DNA of 51,264 nucleotides from a virus: IMG/VR virus record IMGVR_UViG_3300030099_006345, positions 33,143 to 84,406 of that record, one strand, 5' to 3'. A program made the translations under genes and the position numbers. Below are positions 2,914-33,578 of the stretch, one piece after another; position 1 is the first letter of the stretch; each line of letters begins with the position of its first letter. The notes under the pieces are model-generated. The model was given only the letters and a program-made list of their open reading frames with translations, was not told the DNA's origin and ran no database searches.

Positions 2914-3633
2914 TTAAATTACCTCGTCAGCTAATCCATATTCAACAGCTTCTTCAGCAGAAAGATACACGTTCACTTTTTGATCGAGCATTTTCTTTAG
3001 CTGTCTCTTAGTAAGTAGTGTTTGTTCGCATAATGCGGCTATATACATATCTTGAATGTTTTGGATTTCTTCCATCTCATTTACAAGGTTATGAATAGCT
3101 CCAACGTTACCAGCAGAGACTGCATGGATCATCACACGACAATTTTTCATAATCTTTCTTTTACCTCTGGTACCTGATGCAAGTAGCAAAGTTCCAGCAG
3201 ACATTATTTTGCCCATTCCAATTGTTTCAATATCACGATTTGCTTTTGTAATTCTCATCATATCGTGAATAGCCATCATGTCGTCAGCAGATCCACCATA
3301 AGTGGAAATATAAAATTTAATATCTTCTAACTCTTTCTTGGGGCCAATCTTCTTTTTATACTTTTCTACACGTTTTTTATCTCCGAGCAATAACAATGCA
3401 GAAACAATGTCTCCTGCTCTCTCTTCATTAACATCTCCATATAACATAAATGTCGATGGAATATCATCTTCTGGATTTGCAGGTGGTGGTCCACCCATCA
3501 ATTGAGCCATCAAATCTTTTGCCATTTCCATTTCTTCTTCAGTTGGAGGAGGGATTGGTAGTGGCGATGTTTCTTCATCTTTATTACCTTCGTCGATAAT
3601 AACTTTACTCTTTTTCTTCTTCGTGAACTTCAT
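2914..3633 (-). CDS. ClpP-like serine protease (possible prohead protease)
   Basis: 239 aa. An acidic and proline-rich N-terminal arm (about 70 aa, with PLPIPPPTEEE) is followed by a ClpP/crotonase-fold protease. Signature stretches are FYISTYGGSADDMMA (oxyanion glycines), GMGKIMSAGTLLLASG with the likely nucleophile Ser, and RVMIHAVSAG with the likely catalytic His. The C-terminal VYLSAEEAVEYGLADEVI is typical of ClpP. It lies directly downstream of the acidic scaffold-like gene 3740-4366 and has its own promoter at 3703-3730. That position suggests it processes the prohead core rather than acting with ClpA/X, but a housekeeping-type ClpP role cannot be excluded. The N-terminal extension is absent from cellular ClpP. 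Confidence 0.85.
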   Translation of the reverse strand: MKFTKKKKSKVIIDEGNKDEETSPLPIPPPTEEEMEMAKDLMAQLMGGPPPANPEDDIPSTFMLYGDVNEERAGDIVSALLLLGDKKRVEKYKKKIGPKKELEDIKFYISTYGGSADDMMAIHDMMRITKANRDIETIGMGKIMSAGTLLLASGTRGKRKIMKNCRVMIHAVSAGNVGAIHNLVNEMEEIQNIQDMYIAALCEQTLLTKRQLKKMLDQKVNVYLSAEEAVEYGLADEVI

Positions 3634-13991: not shown

Positions 13992-14864
13992 TTATAAAAA
14001 TCTTTTTTCGTCTGCCCATATTTGTGTCTGTGCTATGTCTCTTCTCGTCAAACCACAATGCAATTTGGCAAGATGCATTTCATTCTCTATATCGGTTTTA
14101 GACAAAAGAGTATTGTCTGTACATATTGAGAATTTTATCCCTTCATAGATCCAGTCTTTCATCGGATGATCAGAGTATTCCTTGATGCACCCAGTATGAT
14201 AATTAGATGATAGACAAGCTTCTATAAGAATATCTTTCTCTAATACCAAATCCATGGTCTTCCAATCATCCATTACGGTTAATCCATGACCAATTCTTTG
14301 TGCATGAAGGAAATTTATTGCAACTTCTATCTCTTTAGCCGATCTTCCTTCTCCAGCATGTACAGTTCTACCAAGACCATACTTTTTTGCCTTCGTAAAG
14401 GCGTCAGAATAGTCCATAAGCGAATAGAAATGATTAGGGCTTGGTGCACCAGCCAAGTCAATTCCAACGACCTTCTCACGGGTCCTAGCGGTCTCTACAA
14501 GTCTGTCCAATACTCTTGGATGTTCTCCATAAAGTCCACAAAGGATCAGTCTTTTGTTTCCATAAAGACCAGCTTGGGCTGCGTCAACAATTTCTTCTAA
14601 TGGAGCACCATAATGAAGTTGTGGAGCAAAGCGTATCTCTGCATCGTAAACCCCATTAAAAGTCAAATCGGTACACAAGTTCTCTACTGCTTTTTTAACT
14701 AAATCGGGAGTTTGAATTGTTCCCAGAATTGTCTCAAAGCTTTTAAGTGCATTCTCAAGACCCATTCCTTTATGAAAATAGATCTCAGTTGGATCAAAGC
14801 CCAAGAAATCTACTAAAGCTGCATGTCTTATTGAGCCATCTAAATGACAGTGAAGCTCAATCAT
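13992..14864 (-). CDS. Adenosine deaminase-like metal-dependent hydrolase
   Basis: 290 aa, somewhat shorter than typical adenosine deaminases (330-350). Zinc and catalytic motifs appear in order: MIELHCHLDGSIR (HxH), VVGIDLAG, GRTVHAGEG (His and catalytic Glu), AQRIGHGLTV, and SICTDNTLL at the final metal Asp. Cellular enzymes normally have TDD at the last motif; here the second Asp is Asn, which may shift substrate preference. The expected reaction is adenosine or deoxyadenosine to inosine plus ammonia. Possible roles are nucleotide salvage or removal of a modified or signalling nucleotide. The ATG at 14864 has GGAGG upstream and overlaps the clpS stop (ATGA). Confidence 0.85.
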   Translation of the reverse strand: MIELHCHLDGSIRHAALVDFLGFDPTEIYFHKGMGLENALKSFETILGTIQTPDLVKKAVENLCTDLTFNGVYDAEIRFAPQLHYGAPLEEIVDAAQAGLYGNKRLILCGLYGEHPRVLDRLVETARTREKVVGIDLAGAPSPNHFYSLMDYSDAFTKAKKYGLGRTVHAGEGRSAKEIEVAINFLHAQRIGHGLTVMDDWKTMDLVLEKDILIEACLSSNYHTGCIKEYSDHPMKDWIYEGIKFSICTDNTLLSKTDIENEMHLAKLHCGLTRRDIAQTQIWADEKRFL

Positions 14865-15184
14865 TCTGCCTCCATCGTTACCATTAGCGGATGTCCTTCT
14901 TGTTGTGCATATGCATTGCATTTCTTAGTTCGCATCCAAGCTATTTCTTTTGAATAAACTCCAGCAATACCCTTTCCTTCTTGATGAACTTGTAACATAA
15001 CAGCCTGTGCTTTTTCATTGCCGTAATTAAATACATGAACCAAAATATCCACAACAAACTCCATTGGTGTGAAGTCGTCATTGTGCAGTATGACCTTGAA
15101 TTTCTTTGGTGGCTGGACAGTTTGTCTATCCTTTAATTCGACACCATGTCCGGTGCCTTCTTTTCTCTTTTTCTGTGTTGACAT
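14861..15184 (-). CDS. clpS: ClpS-like adaptor of the Clp protease (N-end rule)
   Basis: 107 aa, the usual ClpS size. A disordered basic N-terminal arm is followed by the ClpS fold: PPKKFKVILHNDDFTPMEFV, then VDILVHVFNYGNEKAQAVML, a VHQEGKGIAGVYSKEIA segment and a final strand. The HNDDFTPMEFV motif forms the N-degron pocket in cellular ClpS. The protein would redirect host ClpAP toward N-end-rule substrates or block it. It is co-transcribed with the deaminase and the small Smr-like gene. Confidence 0.92.
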   Translation of the reverse strand: MSTQKKRKEGTGHGVELKDRQTVQPPKKFKVILHNDDFTPMEFVVDILVHVFNYGNEKAQAVMLQVHQEGKGIAGVYSKEIAWMRTKKCNAYAQQEGHPLMVTMEAE

Positions 15185-17567: not shown

Positions 17568-17665
17568 TAAGTGATAAATGGTGGAGATGACAGGAATCGA
17601 ACCTGCGACCTACTGCGTGCAAGGCAGTTGCTCTCCCTACTGAGCTACATCCCCATTATCACTTA
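17568..17665. repeat. 10-bp inverted repeat flanking the tRNA gene
   Basis: TAAGTGATAA at 17568-17577 and TTATCACTTA at 17656-17665 bracket the tRNA almost exactly. In the transcript they would form a stem closing on the tRNA, a likely processing signal. Confidence 0.7.
17579..17654 (-). tRNA. tRNA-Ala (anticodon TGC)
   Basis: A 76-base cloverleaf including an encoded CCA. The acceptor stem GGGGATG/CATCTCC has the G3:U70 pair that identifies alanine tRNAs. The D arm is AGCTCAGTAGGGAGAGC. The anticodon arm has CTTGCAC in its loop (anticodon TGC), and the T arm has GGTTCGATTCC. A 10-bp inverted repeat flanks the gene. It lies between the lipoprotein gene and the small membrane genes, with no separate promoter visible. 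It would decode GCA and GCG/GCU-type Ala codons and might pair functionally with the AlaRS-like protein at 27494. Confidence 0.96.
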
Positions 17666-25074: not shown

Positions 25075-26436
25075 TTATTTTGATCCTGATAGTTTTGTGT
25101 AATACTTTTGAAGATTTTCTCTTTGCTCCTTTGCAGTGAGCACAGGCGTTTCTTCTTCACCTGTTCTTTCTAGCACCTCTATAGACACAGTTGCCCAATC
25201 AACAGCAGCAGGGAATACCAATCCATCTGGTCCGTTTCTGTTCTTAGCAATAAATATACGCCCCGAATTAGCTTGCTTATCCTGCGGAGTTCTCGATAAT
25301 GAAAAAATAAAGTCAGCAACAAAACATTTGTTAAAAGCCTCTGATATAGACTCCATTGTGATAACTTCAGCATTAAGACCTCCACGATTTGTTTGTGATG
25401 CTGTAATAAAGGCACAATTAAACTCGGTAGCCATGCCTCTAAGTTCTTCATAAATACTTTCCAAATCATGTCTCTTCTCGGAATTCCTTGTAGAAGTTGG
25501 TCTAAGAAGATCAGCATAATCAACAATTACAACATCGGGAAGGATGTTTTGTTTTTTTAGCTTTTCCAAATGAGACTTCAAGGAATTAGTCGAAGCAGAT
25601 TTAGTTGGATATTCTTTTATAATTAGTTTCCCCGGAATGTCGGAGATTCTTTCTTTAACAATTTCTTTTGAATCCATTATATCTCTAAGATCTACCTTCG
25701 ATAAACATGAGTCATAGCGGAGCCCAACAACAGTGTCTGCTAATTCCAAAGTATAATGAACAACTTTTTTACCAAGTTTTAAGGCTTGAGCTCCCAAGTG
25801 AACTAGTACCATAGACTTTCCAGCTCCTGTTGGAGCGATAACAACAGCCAATTCTTTACATCCAACTCCACCCTTAGTTATATCATCAATTCTCGACCAA
25901 CCAGTTGTTGTGGGTCTTCTTGACTTTCTTACATATCTTGCATCCATGTCTTTGTGGAAATCATGACCAAAATCTTGACTATTGCCTTTAGACATGGCTT
26001 CGTTTATAACTTTGGTTATAGAATCATAATCACTTTTCTTGATCATATCTACACATTCTAGCATAGCTTTCTTAAGAGTTTGTTTCTTACAAAAATCTAT
26101 AGATCTGTCTTTTATGAATTGTTTATCCTGTATAGGTCCAGAGGATTTGATTCTTGTATAGAATTCTGTTACTTGTTTTAAGATGGTTTTGTCCAAATTG
26201 TCTCCACCTTGCTTTAACAACATCTCTACAGTTGAATAATGAGGGTGTTGTCCATACTTTTCTCTATAATTTAGCAACATCTCAACAAAAGACCTGTGGT
26301 ATGTTTTATCGAAATAATCTATCTCTAATATTTCCTCAATTTGGTCACAAAACGGACGATCTTCAAGCATTAGTTGTGCAACTTTGTCCTGAAAGTCGGT
26401 ACCGTAGTTCATAAATGTTTCTTTACTTTTCTCCAT
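25075..26436 (-). CDS. Replicative DNA helicase, DnaB/gp41 family
   Basis: 453 aa from the ATG at 26436 (TTGGAGGATAT upstream). The C-terminal RecA-like domain shows Walker A VVIAPTGAGKSMVLVHLG, then KKVVHYTLELAD, Walker B LPDVVIVDYADLLRP and the motif FITASQTNRGG. FIFSLSRTPQDKQANSGRI and IAKNRNG complete the DnaB pattern. The N-terminal 150 residues are the helical collar part. It would unwind the fork ahead of the DnaE polymerase. No primase domain is seen in the window. Promoter at 26458-26485. Confidence 0.92.
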   Translation of the reverse strand: MEKSKETFMNYGTDFQDKVAQLMLEDRPFCDQIEEILEIDYFDKTYHRSFVEMLLNYREKYGQHPHYSTVEMLLKQGGDNLDKTILKQVTEFYTRIKSSGPIQDKQFIKDRSIDFCKKQTLKKAMLECVDMIKKSDYDSITKVINEAMSKGNSQDFGHDFHKDMDARYVRKSRRPTTTGWSRIDDITKGGVGCKELAVVIAPTGAGKSMVLVHLGAQALKLGKKVVHYTLELADTVVGLRYDSCLSKVDLRDIMDSKEIVKERISDIPGKLIIKEYPTKSASTNSLKSHLEKLKKQNILPDVVIVDYADLLRPTSTRNSEKRHDLESIYEELRGMATEFNCAFITASQTNRGGLNAEVITMESISEAFNKCFVADFIFSLSRTPQDKQANSGRIFIAKNRNGPDGLVFPAAVDWATVSIEVLERTGEEETPVLTAKEQRENLQKYYTKLSGSK

Positions 26437-26457
26437 ATATCCTCCAAATGTTCTATA

Positions 26458-26485
26458 AGTATAACATAAAAATGTCAACTGTCAA
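26458..26485 (-). promoter_or_regulatory. Sigma-70 promoter for the helicase/RNR operon
   Basis: Minus strand TTGACA (26485-26480), 16-base spacer, TATACT (26463-26458) with TG extension. The -35 lies inside the last codons of the exonuclease gene. Confidence 0.72.
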
Positions 26486-27431
26486 GTAAAATTTTATTAA
26501 AATTTCCAAAAAGTGTTTCGAGTTTTAATGTAATTTGCCCATCTTCCATCAATAGGCGTTGGAAATCAAGCTTTTGCCATTCAGCCTCGAAATTCTCAAT
26601 AGCAAAATTTATTTGTTCTCTGGTTATGGACGATATCACAGGTTTATACAATTGCATGATATCATAATTGTTCTGAATTAAATCAAGGTTGGCAAGAATG
26701 TTTTCATGAAGTTTAACCTTTTTGTCCACGTTTTTGCAAACTTCAGCAATTGTCTCAACGGTTTGTACCTTTTCTTCGCCCATAAAAGGAAAGCGATTTT
26801 TGATTGTTTTAAGACCAGCCCGAGGAACACCGGGCAAGTTATCTGACTTATCTCCAGCAATGGCACGAGCAAGGGCAAAATTATTGGGATGTATACCATG
26901 TTCCTCCATAAGAGACTGTTCATTGACCAACTTCTTTTGGATTGGTCGGTACAACATTGTGTCGTGTCTGATGAGTTGGAAGAAATCTCTATCGCTTGAG
27001 ATAATATATTTATCCCAGCCTCTATATTTATCGTGTCTAATAGCATAAGCGATAATATCATCGGCTTCCACATGGTCAACAACGATTTGAATTGTAGGTG
27101 TCTCATTTAAATACTCCACTAGTCTAATGTACTGATTTGCCTTATTGGCTGTTTGCTGTTTTTCGTTCAATTCTACCATTCTTCTATTAAAACGAATAGG
27201 CTTTCTTCCGTCCTTGTAGTTTTTGTTCATTTGTTTGCGTTTAGAGGACCCTGAATGGCCGTCCCAAGCGATTATAATCTCGTCAGGGCTAAACATACCG
27301 CAAACTTTCTGGAGACTCTTAATAAAGCCTATGGTGCCTCCTATGGGCTCTCCTGATGGGGCCAGTGTCGGATTCACAACATAGCTTCTTAAAAACATGT
27401 TGAGTCCGTCAATTATCATTAACTTCTTCAT
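26475..27431 (-). CDS. 5'-3' exonuclease (FEN/Pol I N-terminal type)
   Basis: 318 aa. It has the acidic clusters of the flap-nuclease family: MKKLMIIDGLNMFLRSY, then IIIAWDGHSG, VDHVEADDIIAY, YIISSDRDFFQLI and a helix-hairpin-helix AIAGDKSDNLPGVPRAGLKT. It would remove RNA primers or flaps like T4 RNase H. The gene has its own promoter (27455-27483), and GGAGG precedes the ATG. Confidence 0.94.
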   Translation of the reverse strand: MKKLMIIDGLNMFLRSYVVNPTLAPSGEPIGGTIGFIKSLQKVCGMFSPDEIIIAWDGHSGSSKRKQMNKNYKDGRKPIRFNRRMVELNEKQQTANKANQYIRLVEYLNETPTIQIVVDHVEADDIIAYAIRHDKYRGWDKYIISSDRDFFQLIRHDTMLYRPIQKKLVNEQSLMEEHGIHPNNFALARAIAGDKSDNLPGVPRAGLKTIKNRFPFMGEEKVQTVETIAEVCKNVDKKVKLHENILANLDLIQNNYDIMQLYKPVISSITREQINFAIENFEAEWQKLDFQRLLMEDGQITLKLETLFGNFNKILLDS

Positions 27432-27493: not shown

Positions 27494-28357
27494 TTATTTT
27501 TCTTGTTTCAAGCTTTCAATGAAGTCTATATCGACTCCCATTGTATCAAACCACCATTCTTTTGATTTACCTTGATACTTCGCTTTGTGTTTGTCTTTGT
27601 TGTACCTCTTGATAACCTTGTCCTGTCTTTGTTTTTCTTTTAGGTAGTGTTCGTTGTCCCAAGTTGATTGAAGGCGATAAAGCTCTCTCAAAAGCTTTCT
27701 AAAGACATACCCTTGTTCTTTGTTTGAAGGGTAATAGCCTGAATGTAGAAGTTTCTCACATGCCTCGATTAGGATCTCCTCTCTTGTCTGTTCGACAACT
27801 TCATTCACAAACATGTCAAGTCTTTGTAAACCGAACCCAACATCGATGCAAGTGCCGAGAGGATTGACTATATTTCCTATCTCAACATCGTCTTTGAAGA
27901 ACTCTGTACAATAACCTCCGATTTGTCCATCGGTCCATGTGCATTCGTCATCTGCTCTTATCTCAACATCATAATTGTCATAAAGACTCTTCCATTCTTC
28001 CATTTTATCGGGATGTATGGTCACATAGTCTATTTTGATCCCCAAGACATCCTCGACGAATTCCATCCAAAAGTCAACGGCTTGTTGAACCGTCAATTGT
28101 CTGAATGAGAACAAACCCATCATGTCAAAGTATAAGAAATGGGTGCCATCTCCTATCTCGTCCAAATCTTTTAGTCTAACACACGATTGTATGTTAGCTA
28201 TTGTTCCCACATCTTCTGATGAGAATTTCTTCTTAAACTGCTGCATTCCTGCTGGGCAGAACAGGGTTGTTTCATCATAAGGACACACAGTATCATCTAA
28301 CTGAAACTGTATGCCTTTTGATTCGCAATATTTACTGTATTCTTCTGTTATATTCAT
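27494..28357 (-). CDS. Alanyl-tRNA synthetase-like catalytic domain protein
   Basis: 287 aa from the ATG at 28357, coupled by TAATG to the small gene before it (GGAG upstream). The first 185 residues follow the AlaRS catalytic core: YDETTLFCPAGMQQFKKKF (cf. LLFTNAGMNQFK), motif 2 IQSCVRLKDL with Arg 61, THFLYFDMMGLFSF (cf. HTFFEMLGNFSFG), a YCTEFF segment (cf. CSEIF), and motif 3 IDVGFGLQRL with Gly 174 and Arg 179. In cellular AlaRS motif 3 is GxGLERL; here Glu is Gln. The editing and C-Ala domains are absent, while residues 190-287 are helical and basic. Cellular AlaRS is about 875 aa. It may charge tRNA-Ala without proofreading or activate alanine for another acceptor. Confidence 0.82.
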   Translation of the reverse strand: MNITEEYSKYCESKGIQFQLDDTVCPYDETTLFCPAGMQQFKKKFSSEDVGTIANIQSCVRLKDLDEIGDGTHFLYFDMMGLFSFRQLTVQQAVDFWMEFVEDVLGIKIDYVTIHPDKMEEWKSLYDNYDVEIRADDECTWTDGQIGGYCTEFFKDDVEIGNIVNPLGTCIDVGFGLQRLDMFVNEVVEQTREEILIEACEKLLHSGYYPSNKEQGYVFRKLLRELYRLQSTWDNEHYLKEKQRQDKVIKRYNKDKHKAKYQGKSKEWWFDTMGVDIDFIESLKQEK

Positions 28358-28449
28358 TATCTCCAATCCTGATGAATTGCCCATGATCCAATCATTGGTG
28401 CAATAATAAATACGACAGCAAATGCTATCCATAATTCTGTATAATCCAT
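28357..28449 (-). CDS. 30-residue membrane peptide
   Basis: MDYTELWIAFAVVFIIAPMI plus a short tail GSWAIHQDWR. One membrane span, with AAGGAGAAATAAA before the ATG at 28449. The stop is TAATG with the AlaRS-like start, so the two are translated together. Unknown function. Confidence 0.6.
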   Translation of the reverse strand: MDYTELWIAFAVVFIIAPMIGSWAIHQDWR

Positions 28450-28450
28450 T

Positions 28451-29383
28451 TTATTTCTCCTTCATTAGATTACGCATTTTAAAGAGTGCTTGCTCTTTGT
28501 GCTTGGCTTCAAGCATAATGTCCATTGGCAAACCATAGGTGTTTATTGGTCGGACATATGAGTCTGAGTGGGCTTGGGGTTTGATCTTTGGATCTCCGTA
28601 TTCATCTGATCTAGACTCTGAATAGTGAACCACAGGGCGAACACCCACATCCCAAGTGGAAAGAGCCATTTCAAGAGCTTCTTGCTCTGATTGACCTCCA
28701 CTGTGTAAACTGTGGTGATGATAGTCAAATACCACAGGAATGCCAATGCGTTTAAAGATATTATCATATAATTCCCTCGTTGTGTACAATGATGGTTTAT
28801 CATCGTTTTCGACTGTTAGTCTTGTTTTGACGGCTTCTGATAATCTTTGAAAATTCTTGCAAAAGTTACCAACGGCCATAGGTTTGTCATCATAAGCTGC
28901 TCCTACGTGAATGTTAATTTTAGCATAAGTAGTTCTTGGAAGACACATGAGATCAAATATCTCACCATGGATCTCCAAGTCTCTCATGGTTCTTAGTATG
29001 ACTTCCTCTCTTGGAGAGGTTAGTTTGTTGAAGGGGCCCGGATGCGTAGTTACACGAATGTCGTTTTCTGCTGCATACAGACCTGCTTCGTACAAAGCTT
29101 CAGATATTTGTTCGTATTCTGGAAGCTCTGTTAGTTGATATTCAGATGCCCACGGGATTAAGTCCGAAGACATTCTGAAGAAATTAATATTGTTTTCTTT
29201 ATTCCATTTAAGTATTTTAAGTAAGTCTCTGCAATTTGCAAGAGACAATTGTGAAGCATAAGCTATTCCCTTTTCTTGAAAGGTTCTTTTGATCATACTT
29301 CTGTTTGTTGTTATGCGTTGTTTCTTTGGTCTTTGTGAAAAGCCCATATTGATACAAGCATAGCCCAATCTATAATTAGACAT
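28451..29383 (-). CDS. uvsE: UV damage endonuclease (UVDE/UvsE)
   Basis: 310 aa. It matches the UVDE TIM-barrel throughout: RLGYACINMGFSQ, FFRMSSDLIPWASE, RVTTHPGPFNKL, KINIHVGAAYDDK, RLTVENDDKPSL, IPVVFDYHHHSLH, and VRPVVHYSESRS. It nicks 5' of cyclobutane dimers and (6-4) photoproducts and so would repair phage or host DNA in sunlit water. Promoter at 29405-29433; CGGAGGATAA precedes the ATG. Confidence 0.95.
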   Translation of the reverse strand: MSNYRLGYACINMGFSQRPKKQRITTNRSMIKRTFQEKGIAYASQLSLANCRDLLKILKWNKENNINFFRMSSDLIPWASEYQLTELPEYEQISEALYEAGLYAAENDIRVTTHPGPFNKLTSPREEVILRTMRDLEIHGEIFDLMCLPRTTYAKINIHVGAAYDDKPMAVGNFCKNFQRLSEAVKTRLTVENDDKPSLYTTRELYDNIFKRIGIPVVFDYHHHSLHSGGQSEQEALEMALSTWDVGVRPVVHYSESRSDEYGDPKIKPQAHSDSYVRPINTYGLPMDIMLEAKHKEQALFKMRNLMKEK

Positions 29384-32822: not shown

Positions 32823-33578
32823 TTAGCCTATTAATTTATCAAAGGCTTCGTCAACTGCGTCTTTAGCTCCGTACTTTACGGTTTCAGAGGATGATCCTTC
32901 CGATCCATCAGCACTTAAGAATTCGTTTAACAATGCTTGTACATCAGCAGTTGTTTTTCTCTCAAACTGAGCTCCTATATCAGGAACTGAGTCTAATAAA
33001 GCGTCACAGTCAGTAACATCATCATCACACAGGACAGAGGGACGACGACGAGGCTTAAGAGTCGTTTTAGGGAAAGAACCGGGAGTTCCGGGAATATCGT
33101 AATTTAATACGACATCAGTACCAGACTCTGGATCTGTAATATCACCATAATCAGGATCAAGGACGTATCCTAAAAGCGTTTCATAAGCCATTTTGCCGTA
33201 AGACCAGACTTTTACACCTTCGGTCTCTTTTCCACGAACTAAAATTGGAGAGAAATAACGCTTGCGAACAAAAAGCTTTTTTGCTTCTTTTTTAGCAAGA
33301 TCATCGTTATTGTCCACGCCTTCTTTCCATAATTTGGAAGCGAAGTCACAAATTGGACATTCTTCATTAAAGTTACGCTTCGGGCACATAATACCCGGAT
33401 TTTTACCTACGTTATAATGAAAGTGGAATTCCTTAAACGGATCGCCATCTTTTGTTGGTAAAATACGGATTGTTTGGTCACCTTGTTCAGGTCTCCATTT
33501 GGTGTCTTTTTTATTAGCATTAGCACCATTCTTGCTTGCATTGAGTTTCCTTCTCATTGCTTCTAAATCTATAGCCAT
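32823..33578 (-). CDS. 32: Single-stranded DNA-binding protein (gp32-like)
   Basis: 251 aa from the ATG at 33578 (AAAAGGAG upstream). It has a basic N-terminal B-region (MAIDLEAMRRKLNASK), an OB-fold core with a zinc-type motif (FHFHYNVGKNPGIMCPKRNF, then ECPICDFASKLW), KLFVRKRYFSPILVRG, and an acidic C-terminal tail ending KYGAKDAVDEAFDKLIG. The order matches T4 gp32. It coats ssDNA and interacts with UvsX and polymerase. The leader has a hairpin and a T4-late-like promoter; the gene ends at a terminator. Confidence 0.92.
   Translation of the reverse strand: MAIDLEAMRRKLNASKNGANANKKDTKWRPEQGDQTIRILPTKDGDPFKEFHFHYNVGKNPGIMCPKRNFNEECPICDFASKLWKEGVDNNDDLAKKEAKKLFVRKRYFSPILVRGKETEGVKVWSYGKMAYETLLGYVLDPDYGDITDPESGTDVVLNYDIPGTPGSFPKTTLKPRRRPSVLCDDDVTDCDALLDSVPDIGAQFERKTTADVQALLNEFLSADGSEGSSSETVKYGAKDAVDEAFDKLIG

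Follow-up and report, generated by a model that had tools for sequence, protein, structure and literature searches.

A 287-residue AlaRS-like protein encoded by a phage that also carries tRNA-Ala(UGC) is a candidate editing-free alanine-charging enzyme

The window analysed here, a stretch of 51,264 nucleotides from a marine virus of bacteria, covering positions 33,143 to 84,406 of the virus record IMGVR_UViG_3300030099_006345, encodes a tRNA-Ala(UGC) and, on the same strand and ~9.8 kb away, a small protein related to alanyl-tRNA synthetase (AlaRS), referred to below as mini-AlaRS. Judging from sequence and predicted structure, mini-AlaRS is probably a phage-supplied, editing-free alanine-charging enzyme that would act on any acceptor bearing the G3:U70 pair, and the relation between the two genes is best read as a loose pairing, not as a private pair. 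The features on which this reading draws are the following.

17579..17654 (-), tRNA-Ala(UGC) with G3:U70, A73 and encoded CCA (ARAGORN, Rfam), syntenic with the tRNA-Ala of sister phage G001
23206..25062 (-), ribonucleotide reductase, member of the conserved block
25075..26478 (-), DnaB-like helicase, which served as lineage marker
26475..27431 (-), 5'-3' exonuclease, immediate downstream neighbour of mini-AlaRS and part of a block kept in relatives
27494..28357 (-), mini-AlaRS, 287 aa, catalytic core plus a shortened G3:U70-reading domain (Pfam, alignments, AF2/Foldseek, hhalign)
28357..28449 (-), ORF for a putative membrane-type hydrophobic peptide of 30 aa, preceded by the good ribosome-binding sequence AAGGAG, its stop overlapping the mini-AlaRS start as TAATG (sequence reading)

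ARAGORN and Rfam RF00005 (72.9 bits, E=3.9e-14) delimit exactly the same span for the tRNA gene. Its acceptor stem, GGGGAUG/CAUCUCC, contains G3:U70 and is accompanied by the discriminator A73 and a genome-encoded CCA; a cloverleaf fold was obtained, and, together with the UGC anticodon, these features are those of a bacterial-type tRNA-Ala. The original prediction of such a tRNA at this place, with G3:U70 and an encoded CCA, is therefore confirmed, and so is its claim of an AlaRS-like core about 10 kb from it. The search of the whole 84,406-bp virus record found no tRNA besides this tRNA-Ala. Alanine codons in the window (GCU 45%, GCA 40%, GCC 12% and GCG 4%, with GCA, GCU and GCG together making up ~88%) are suited to the UGC anticodon.

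The AlaRS-like ORF spans 27494-28432(-) and matches the class II AlaRS catalytic domain PF01411 with 78.4 bits against a cut-off of 30.3 (E=5.6e-22). The most likely start codon is the one at 28357, for a product of 287 aa, because homology to relatives begins there and the 30-aa ORF overlaps that ATG; a longer product starting at 28432 would be possible. Translational coupling of the 30-aa ORF with mini-AlaRS is possible in view of this overlap. A comparison of the 22 genes that the window has in common with four relatives puts mini-AlaRS first in conservation (mean 79%), and the gene is under purifying selection, with dN of 0.07-0.14 (dS is saturated, so that only dN is quoted).

A gene for the UV-damage endonuclease UvdE lies directly upstream of mini-AlaRS (28451-29383). 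The UvdE homolog of G001 is ~20 kb from the enzyme gene, so the neighbourhood has been rearranged. The window also encodes ClpS (14861-15184), a ClpP-like protease (2914-3633) and a GroEL-like ORF (3-413), a host-like set for protein turnover and folding, as well as an adenosine deaminase family protein (13992-14921; PF00962, E=1.9e-46).

Alignment with E. coli AlaRS, whose residue numbers count Met1, places R86, F102, W166, N187, D197, G199 and R204 of mini-AlaRS at R70, F91, W171, N213, D236, G238 and R243. These seven ATP- and alanine-binding residues, which include R86, W166, N187, D197 and the motif 3 arginine R204, are retained and are invariant in 20 of 20 phage family members, and the motifs also hold in bacterial homologs. 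Residues N303 and D400 of the E. coli enzyme are the known readers of G3:U70. They correspond to N237 and D296 of the window protein, both kept in the window lineage. Profile-profile alignment places the PSN motif (N303) with high probability, and the DTxG match (D296 with D400) comes from the global alignment only. Across the family, several members have P, S, G or H at the N237 position, and two have E or N at that of D296.

The catalytic core, the alanine pocket, motif 3 and the PSN and DTxG motifs are thus shared with the 876-aa E. coli AlaS (TIGR00344), whereas the canonical architecture is not: mini-AlaRS ends at the DTxG motif, without an editing domain and without a C-Ala domain, its tRNA-recognition domain is shortened, with most helices between the two G3:U70-reading residues absent, and its motif 2 loop is shortened by four residues relative to the E. 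coli loop, whose lysine it lacks. The TIGR00344 score, 77 bits, is below the cut-off of 457. A search for a stand-alone editing domain (PF07973) in 12 carrier records returned no match, and control of Ser/Gly mischarging would therefore depend on host enzymes. In a Foldseek search with the AlphaFold2 model (pLDDT 82, pTM 0.77), the best PDB matches are catalytic fragments of AlaRS (TMq up to 0.72); in the viral set of predicted structures, matches at E<=0.001 are confined to two giant-virus AlaRS, of 464 and 513 aa. The window protein has the appearance of a genuine alanine-activating enzyme equipped with G3:U70-reading residues. The shortened motif 2 loop and the very small size would also suit a protein that mimics AlaRS without catalysing anything, binding tRNA-Ala or the host AlaRS and so regulating or inhibiting host translation. 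We consider such a mimic barely credible, since all compared alanine- and ATP-contacting residues are invariant across phages and bacteria that are 44-82% identical, and a decoy need not keep them.

Phage synthetases and giant-virus mini-AlaRS are already known. The closest parallel in architecture is TuAlaRS of Tupanvirus, which has 461 aa and lacks the editing and C-Ala domains (PMC10036535). No smaller AlaRS is known to charge tRNA. It charges tRNA-Ala and a microhelix about equally, rescues yeast and charges G3:U70 tRNA despite P and T replacing N and D (PMC10036535). Both cases combine a viral AlaRS that lacks the editing and C-Ala domains, and consists of the aminoacylation domain only, with viral tRNA-Ala genes bearing G3:U70, and the N-to-P change at the position of E. 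coli N303 recurs in some phage members. The likeness is one of architecture: the phage protein is ~40% shorter (287 aa, ~174 residues less) and belongs to a bacterial-virus lineage, its clade is far from cellular AlaRS, and both N and D are present in the window member. Phage-encoded charging enzymes in many-tRNA genomes have also been described for huge phages, with up to 15 synthetases per genome, and the main text of that study does not include an alanyl synthetase (PMC7162821).

Proteins of ~275-290 aa homologous to mini-AlaRS are encoded by marine phages, by huge phages with genomes of up to 635 kb and by rhizobia, in the last frequently on plasmids. Of the homologs in IMG/VR, 22 are close (74-82%) and 11 more distant (46-61%), the latter on contigs of up to 508 kb, and one further homolog is encoded by the 634,780-bp phage LR745206. 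One scan of bacterial genomes yielded 50 homologs of similar length, mostly from Rhizobium, Neorhizobium, Phyllobacterium and Inquilinus; two are located on Rhizobium plasmids and annotated as 'alanine--tRNA ligase-related protein'. Such rhizobial proteins (e.g. WP_028743334.1, pRL9) belong to the same clade, have the same length and show ~50% identity to the phage protein, from which they differ in being cellular, in being plasmid- or chromosome-borne and in having no tRNA-Ala gene found near them. In the tree, the mini proteins group as one clade (support 100/100), which a long branch separates from the three cellular AlaRS included; phage and bacterial members are intermixed, and a single phage clade is rejected (p-AU 0.0011). 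The PHROG family of the phage protein, phrog_28604, supplied no name beyond 'unknown function', and our literature searches, made in freely readable main texts, found no paper on a phage alanyl-tRNA synthetase, no functional study of the rhizobial protein and no description of a ~280-aa AlaRS family common to phages and rhizobia.

The bacterial homologs bear on whether the enzyme serves translation at all. AcmF, a truncated AlaRS-like transferase of ascamycin biosynthesis in which the activation residues are lost (N219Q, D232E), likewise comprises aminoacylation and tRNA-recognition domains only (PMC12945691), and its existence allows for an AcmF-like or other non-translational enzyme that alanylates a small molecule, a lipid or a carrier protein from Ala-tRNA or free alanine. 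The bacterial proteins, which stand alone on rhizobial plasmids or chromosomes in genomes that also have a full-length AlaRS (3 of 3 mini-AlaRS-bearing genomes checked), would agree with such a role. Still, we regard it as unlikely: the equivalents of the residues lost from AcmF, N187 and D197, are retained and invariant in mini-AlaRS, which disfavours an AcmF-like transferase; no conserved neighbours, biosynthetic or other, were found for the bacterial genes across genera; and in huge phages the mini-AlaRS gene sits within tRNA arrays. On both plasmids viewed, the rhizobial gene (L200:7661-9598 on R. johnstonii pRL9) adjoins an Xre/RES toxin-antitoxin pair, an arrangement that is not kept across genera.

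A charging enzyme for G3:U70 acceptors is the preferred reading of mini-AlaRS, and its relation to the phage tRNA-Ala can be judged from the distribution of the two genes. In the sister phage G001, a tRNA-Ala(UGC) occupies the same syntenic place, ~12 kb downstream of the enzyme gene and behind the same gene block. Elsewhere the two are closer still, the tRNA-Ala(UGC) gene being separated from mini-AlaRS by 0.4 kb (LR745206), 0.9 kb (L059), 1.6 kb (L056), 2.4 kb (L060) or 4.7 kb (L064). LR745206 has 58 ARAGORN tRNA calls, and its single tRNA-Ala is the second-nearest tRNA to mini-AlaRS; in the 508-kb record G020 (L056), the two tRNA-Ala calls among 61, one of them odd in sequence, are the two nearest to it. 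These two arrays may share descent and are therefore not counted as independent events. In the L057 and L062 records, tRNA-Ala is present elsewhere than beside mini-AlaRS. All convincing tRNA-Ala genes have G3:U70, as is general in bacteria.

Over records longer than 40 kb, tRNA-Ala is present in 9 of 15 that carry mini-AlaRS and in 3 of 15 comparison records, which are relatives picked by their DnaB helicase that lack it (Fisher one-sided p=0.03, two-sided 0.06; the records are related and mostly fragments). Fragments also make up the close group L007-L024, several of which end near the place of the tRNA. Co-occurrence of the two genes in relatives is partial: the synteny in G001 and the 0.4-5 kb spacing in five records speak for it, and the counts have exceptions both ways. 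No tRNA-Ala was found in the 437-kb G018 (L065), which has the enzyme and 27 tRNAs, or in the 149-kb L063 record, which also carries mini-AlaRS, while the 186-kb relative G027 has a tRNA-Ala and no detectable PF01411, and G049 has a tRNA-Ala without mini-AlaRS.

These exceptions give some weight to the view that tRNA and enzyme are independent add-ons with no functional link, the host AlaRS charging the phage tRNA and the phage enzyme serving host tRNA-Ala. Vibrio phage tRNA sets in which tRNA-Ala is present and no mini-AlaRS was found point the same way, as do the rhizobial enzymes without a tRNA neighbour. This view is a real possibility that we nevertheless hold with doubt, given the syntenic place kept in G000 and G001, the position of tRNA-Ala as the tRNA closest or next-closest to the enzyme gene in two huge phages, and the enrichment in carriers.

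At the opposite end stands the idea that enzyme and tRNA are a dedicated, orthogonal pair for alanine, by which the phage would insulate its translation from the host. Co-occurrence and synteny speak for it, yet we judge it very unlikely: the phage tRNA has the universal elements G3:U70, A73 and G20, so that the host AlaRS should charge it, and shows no element that would distinguish it; the universal G3:U70 readers are present in the enzyme; and co-occurrence is incomplete, with G018 and G027 as exceptions in the two directions. The dedicated pair proposed in the original prediction is thus not upheld, since the universal G3:U70 identity pair on both sides leaves host partners open to each half. 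The loose pairing named at the outset accommodates these observations, and insulation of phage translation from host tRNA depletion, raised along with the dedicated pair, is possible.

The tmRNA would be a further acceptor in some relatives. G001 encodes a tmRNA (L112:5103-5434, corresponding to G001 105103-105434) with a G3:U70 stem and the tag ANNNLFFDEVALAA, and a second tmRNA, above the Rfam cut-off, is located in G020 at 59955-60348(-). AlaRS is the enzyme that charges tmRNA, and an enzyme that contacts only the acceptor stem should therefore serve phage tmRNA too. Such restricted contact, like that of the Tupanvirus AlaRS, would be expected of mini-AlaRS because it has lost the editing domain, the elbow-binding C-Ala domain and the greater part of the helices that separate the two readers. 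In the mechanism that we propose, mini-AlaRS would activate L-alanine with ATP and load acceptor stems bearing G3:U70, namely those of phage tRNA-Ala, host tRNA-Ala and, in relatives that encode one, phage tmRNA. This would sustain the supply of Ala-tRNA in the late phase of infection, in which the host's AlaRS or tRNA may be limiting or attacked, and the phage tRNA-Ala would read the GCA/GCU-rich alanine codons. Activity, substrate range and benefit are all inferred here.

A mini-AlaRS gene was also observed in an Armatimonadetes MAG (G054), on the 1.36-Mb contig 5 (L190; L384-L395). Its surroundings have 53% GC, as sampled between 85 and 530 kb, and include ~60 tRNAs of nearly all isotypes, three of them tRNA-Ala (CGC, GGC and UGC); the remainder of the contig has ~60% GC and its own tRNAs. 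Full-length AlaRS was not found in this MAG and is present in all 20 relatives (21 genomes compared). We rejected this as evidence that mini-AlaRS replaces the canonical enzyme, since the stretch resembles a huge-phage element, integrated or chimeric, and the missing AlaRS may be a gap in the MAG. Huge-phage arrays also contain CUA-anticodon tRNAs, called as Pyl by ARAGORN (in G018, L121; in G020; and in L190); they are likely suppressors, and amber recoding is possible.

AlaRS is the textbook synthetase that reads an acceptor-stem code, and the mini-AlaRS family common to huge phages and soil bacteria is almost unstudied. The broader claim, which we regard as evenly poised, is that an uncharacterised family of ~280-aa AlaRS, in which the recognition domain is reduced and proofreading is absent, charges G3:U70 stems, that it serves marine and huge phages, alongside tRNA-Ala and tmRNA, in taking control of the alanine supply, and that its relatives reside on rhizobial plasmids. 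If true, an AlaRS of ~280 aa would have about one third of the size of the E. coli enzyme, well under the 461-aa record, and the window enzyme could be the smallest natural AlaRS. Such a natural enzyme would be a minimal system for asking which parts suffice for reading G3:U70 and whether proofreading is dispensable, and it would exemplify phages that supply, for a single amino acid, the charging enzyme, the tRNA and the tmRNA; the same family has a bacterial branch on rhizobial plasmids.
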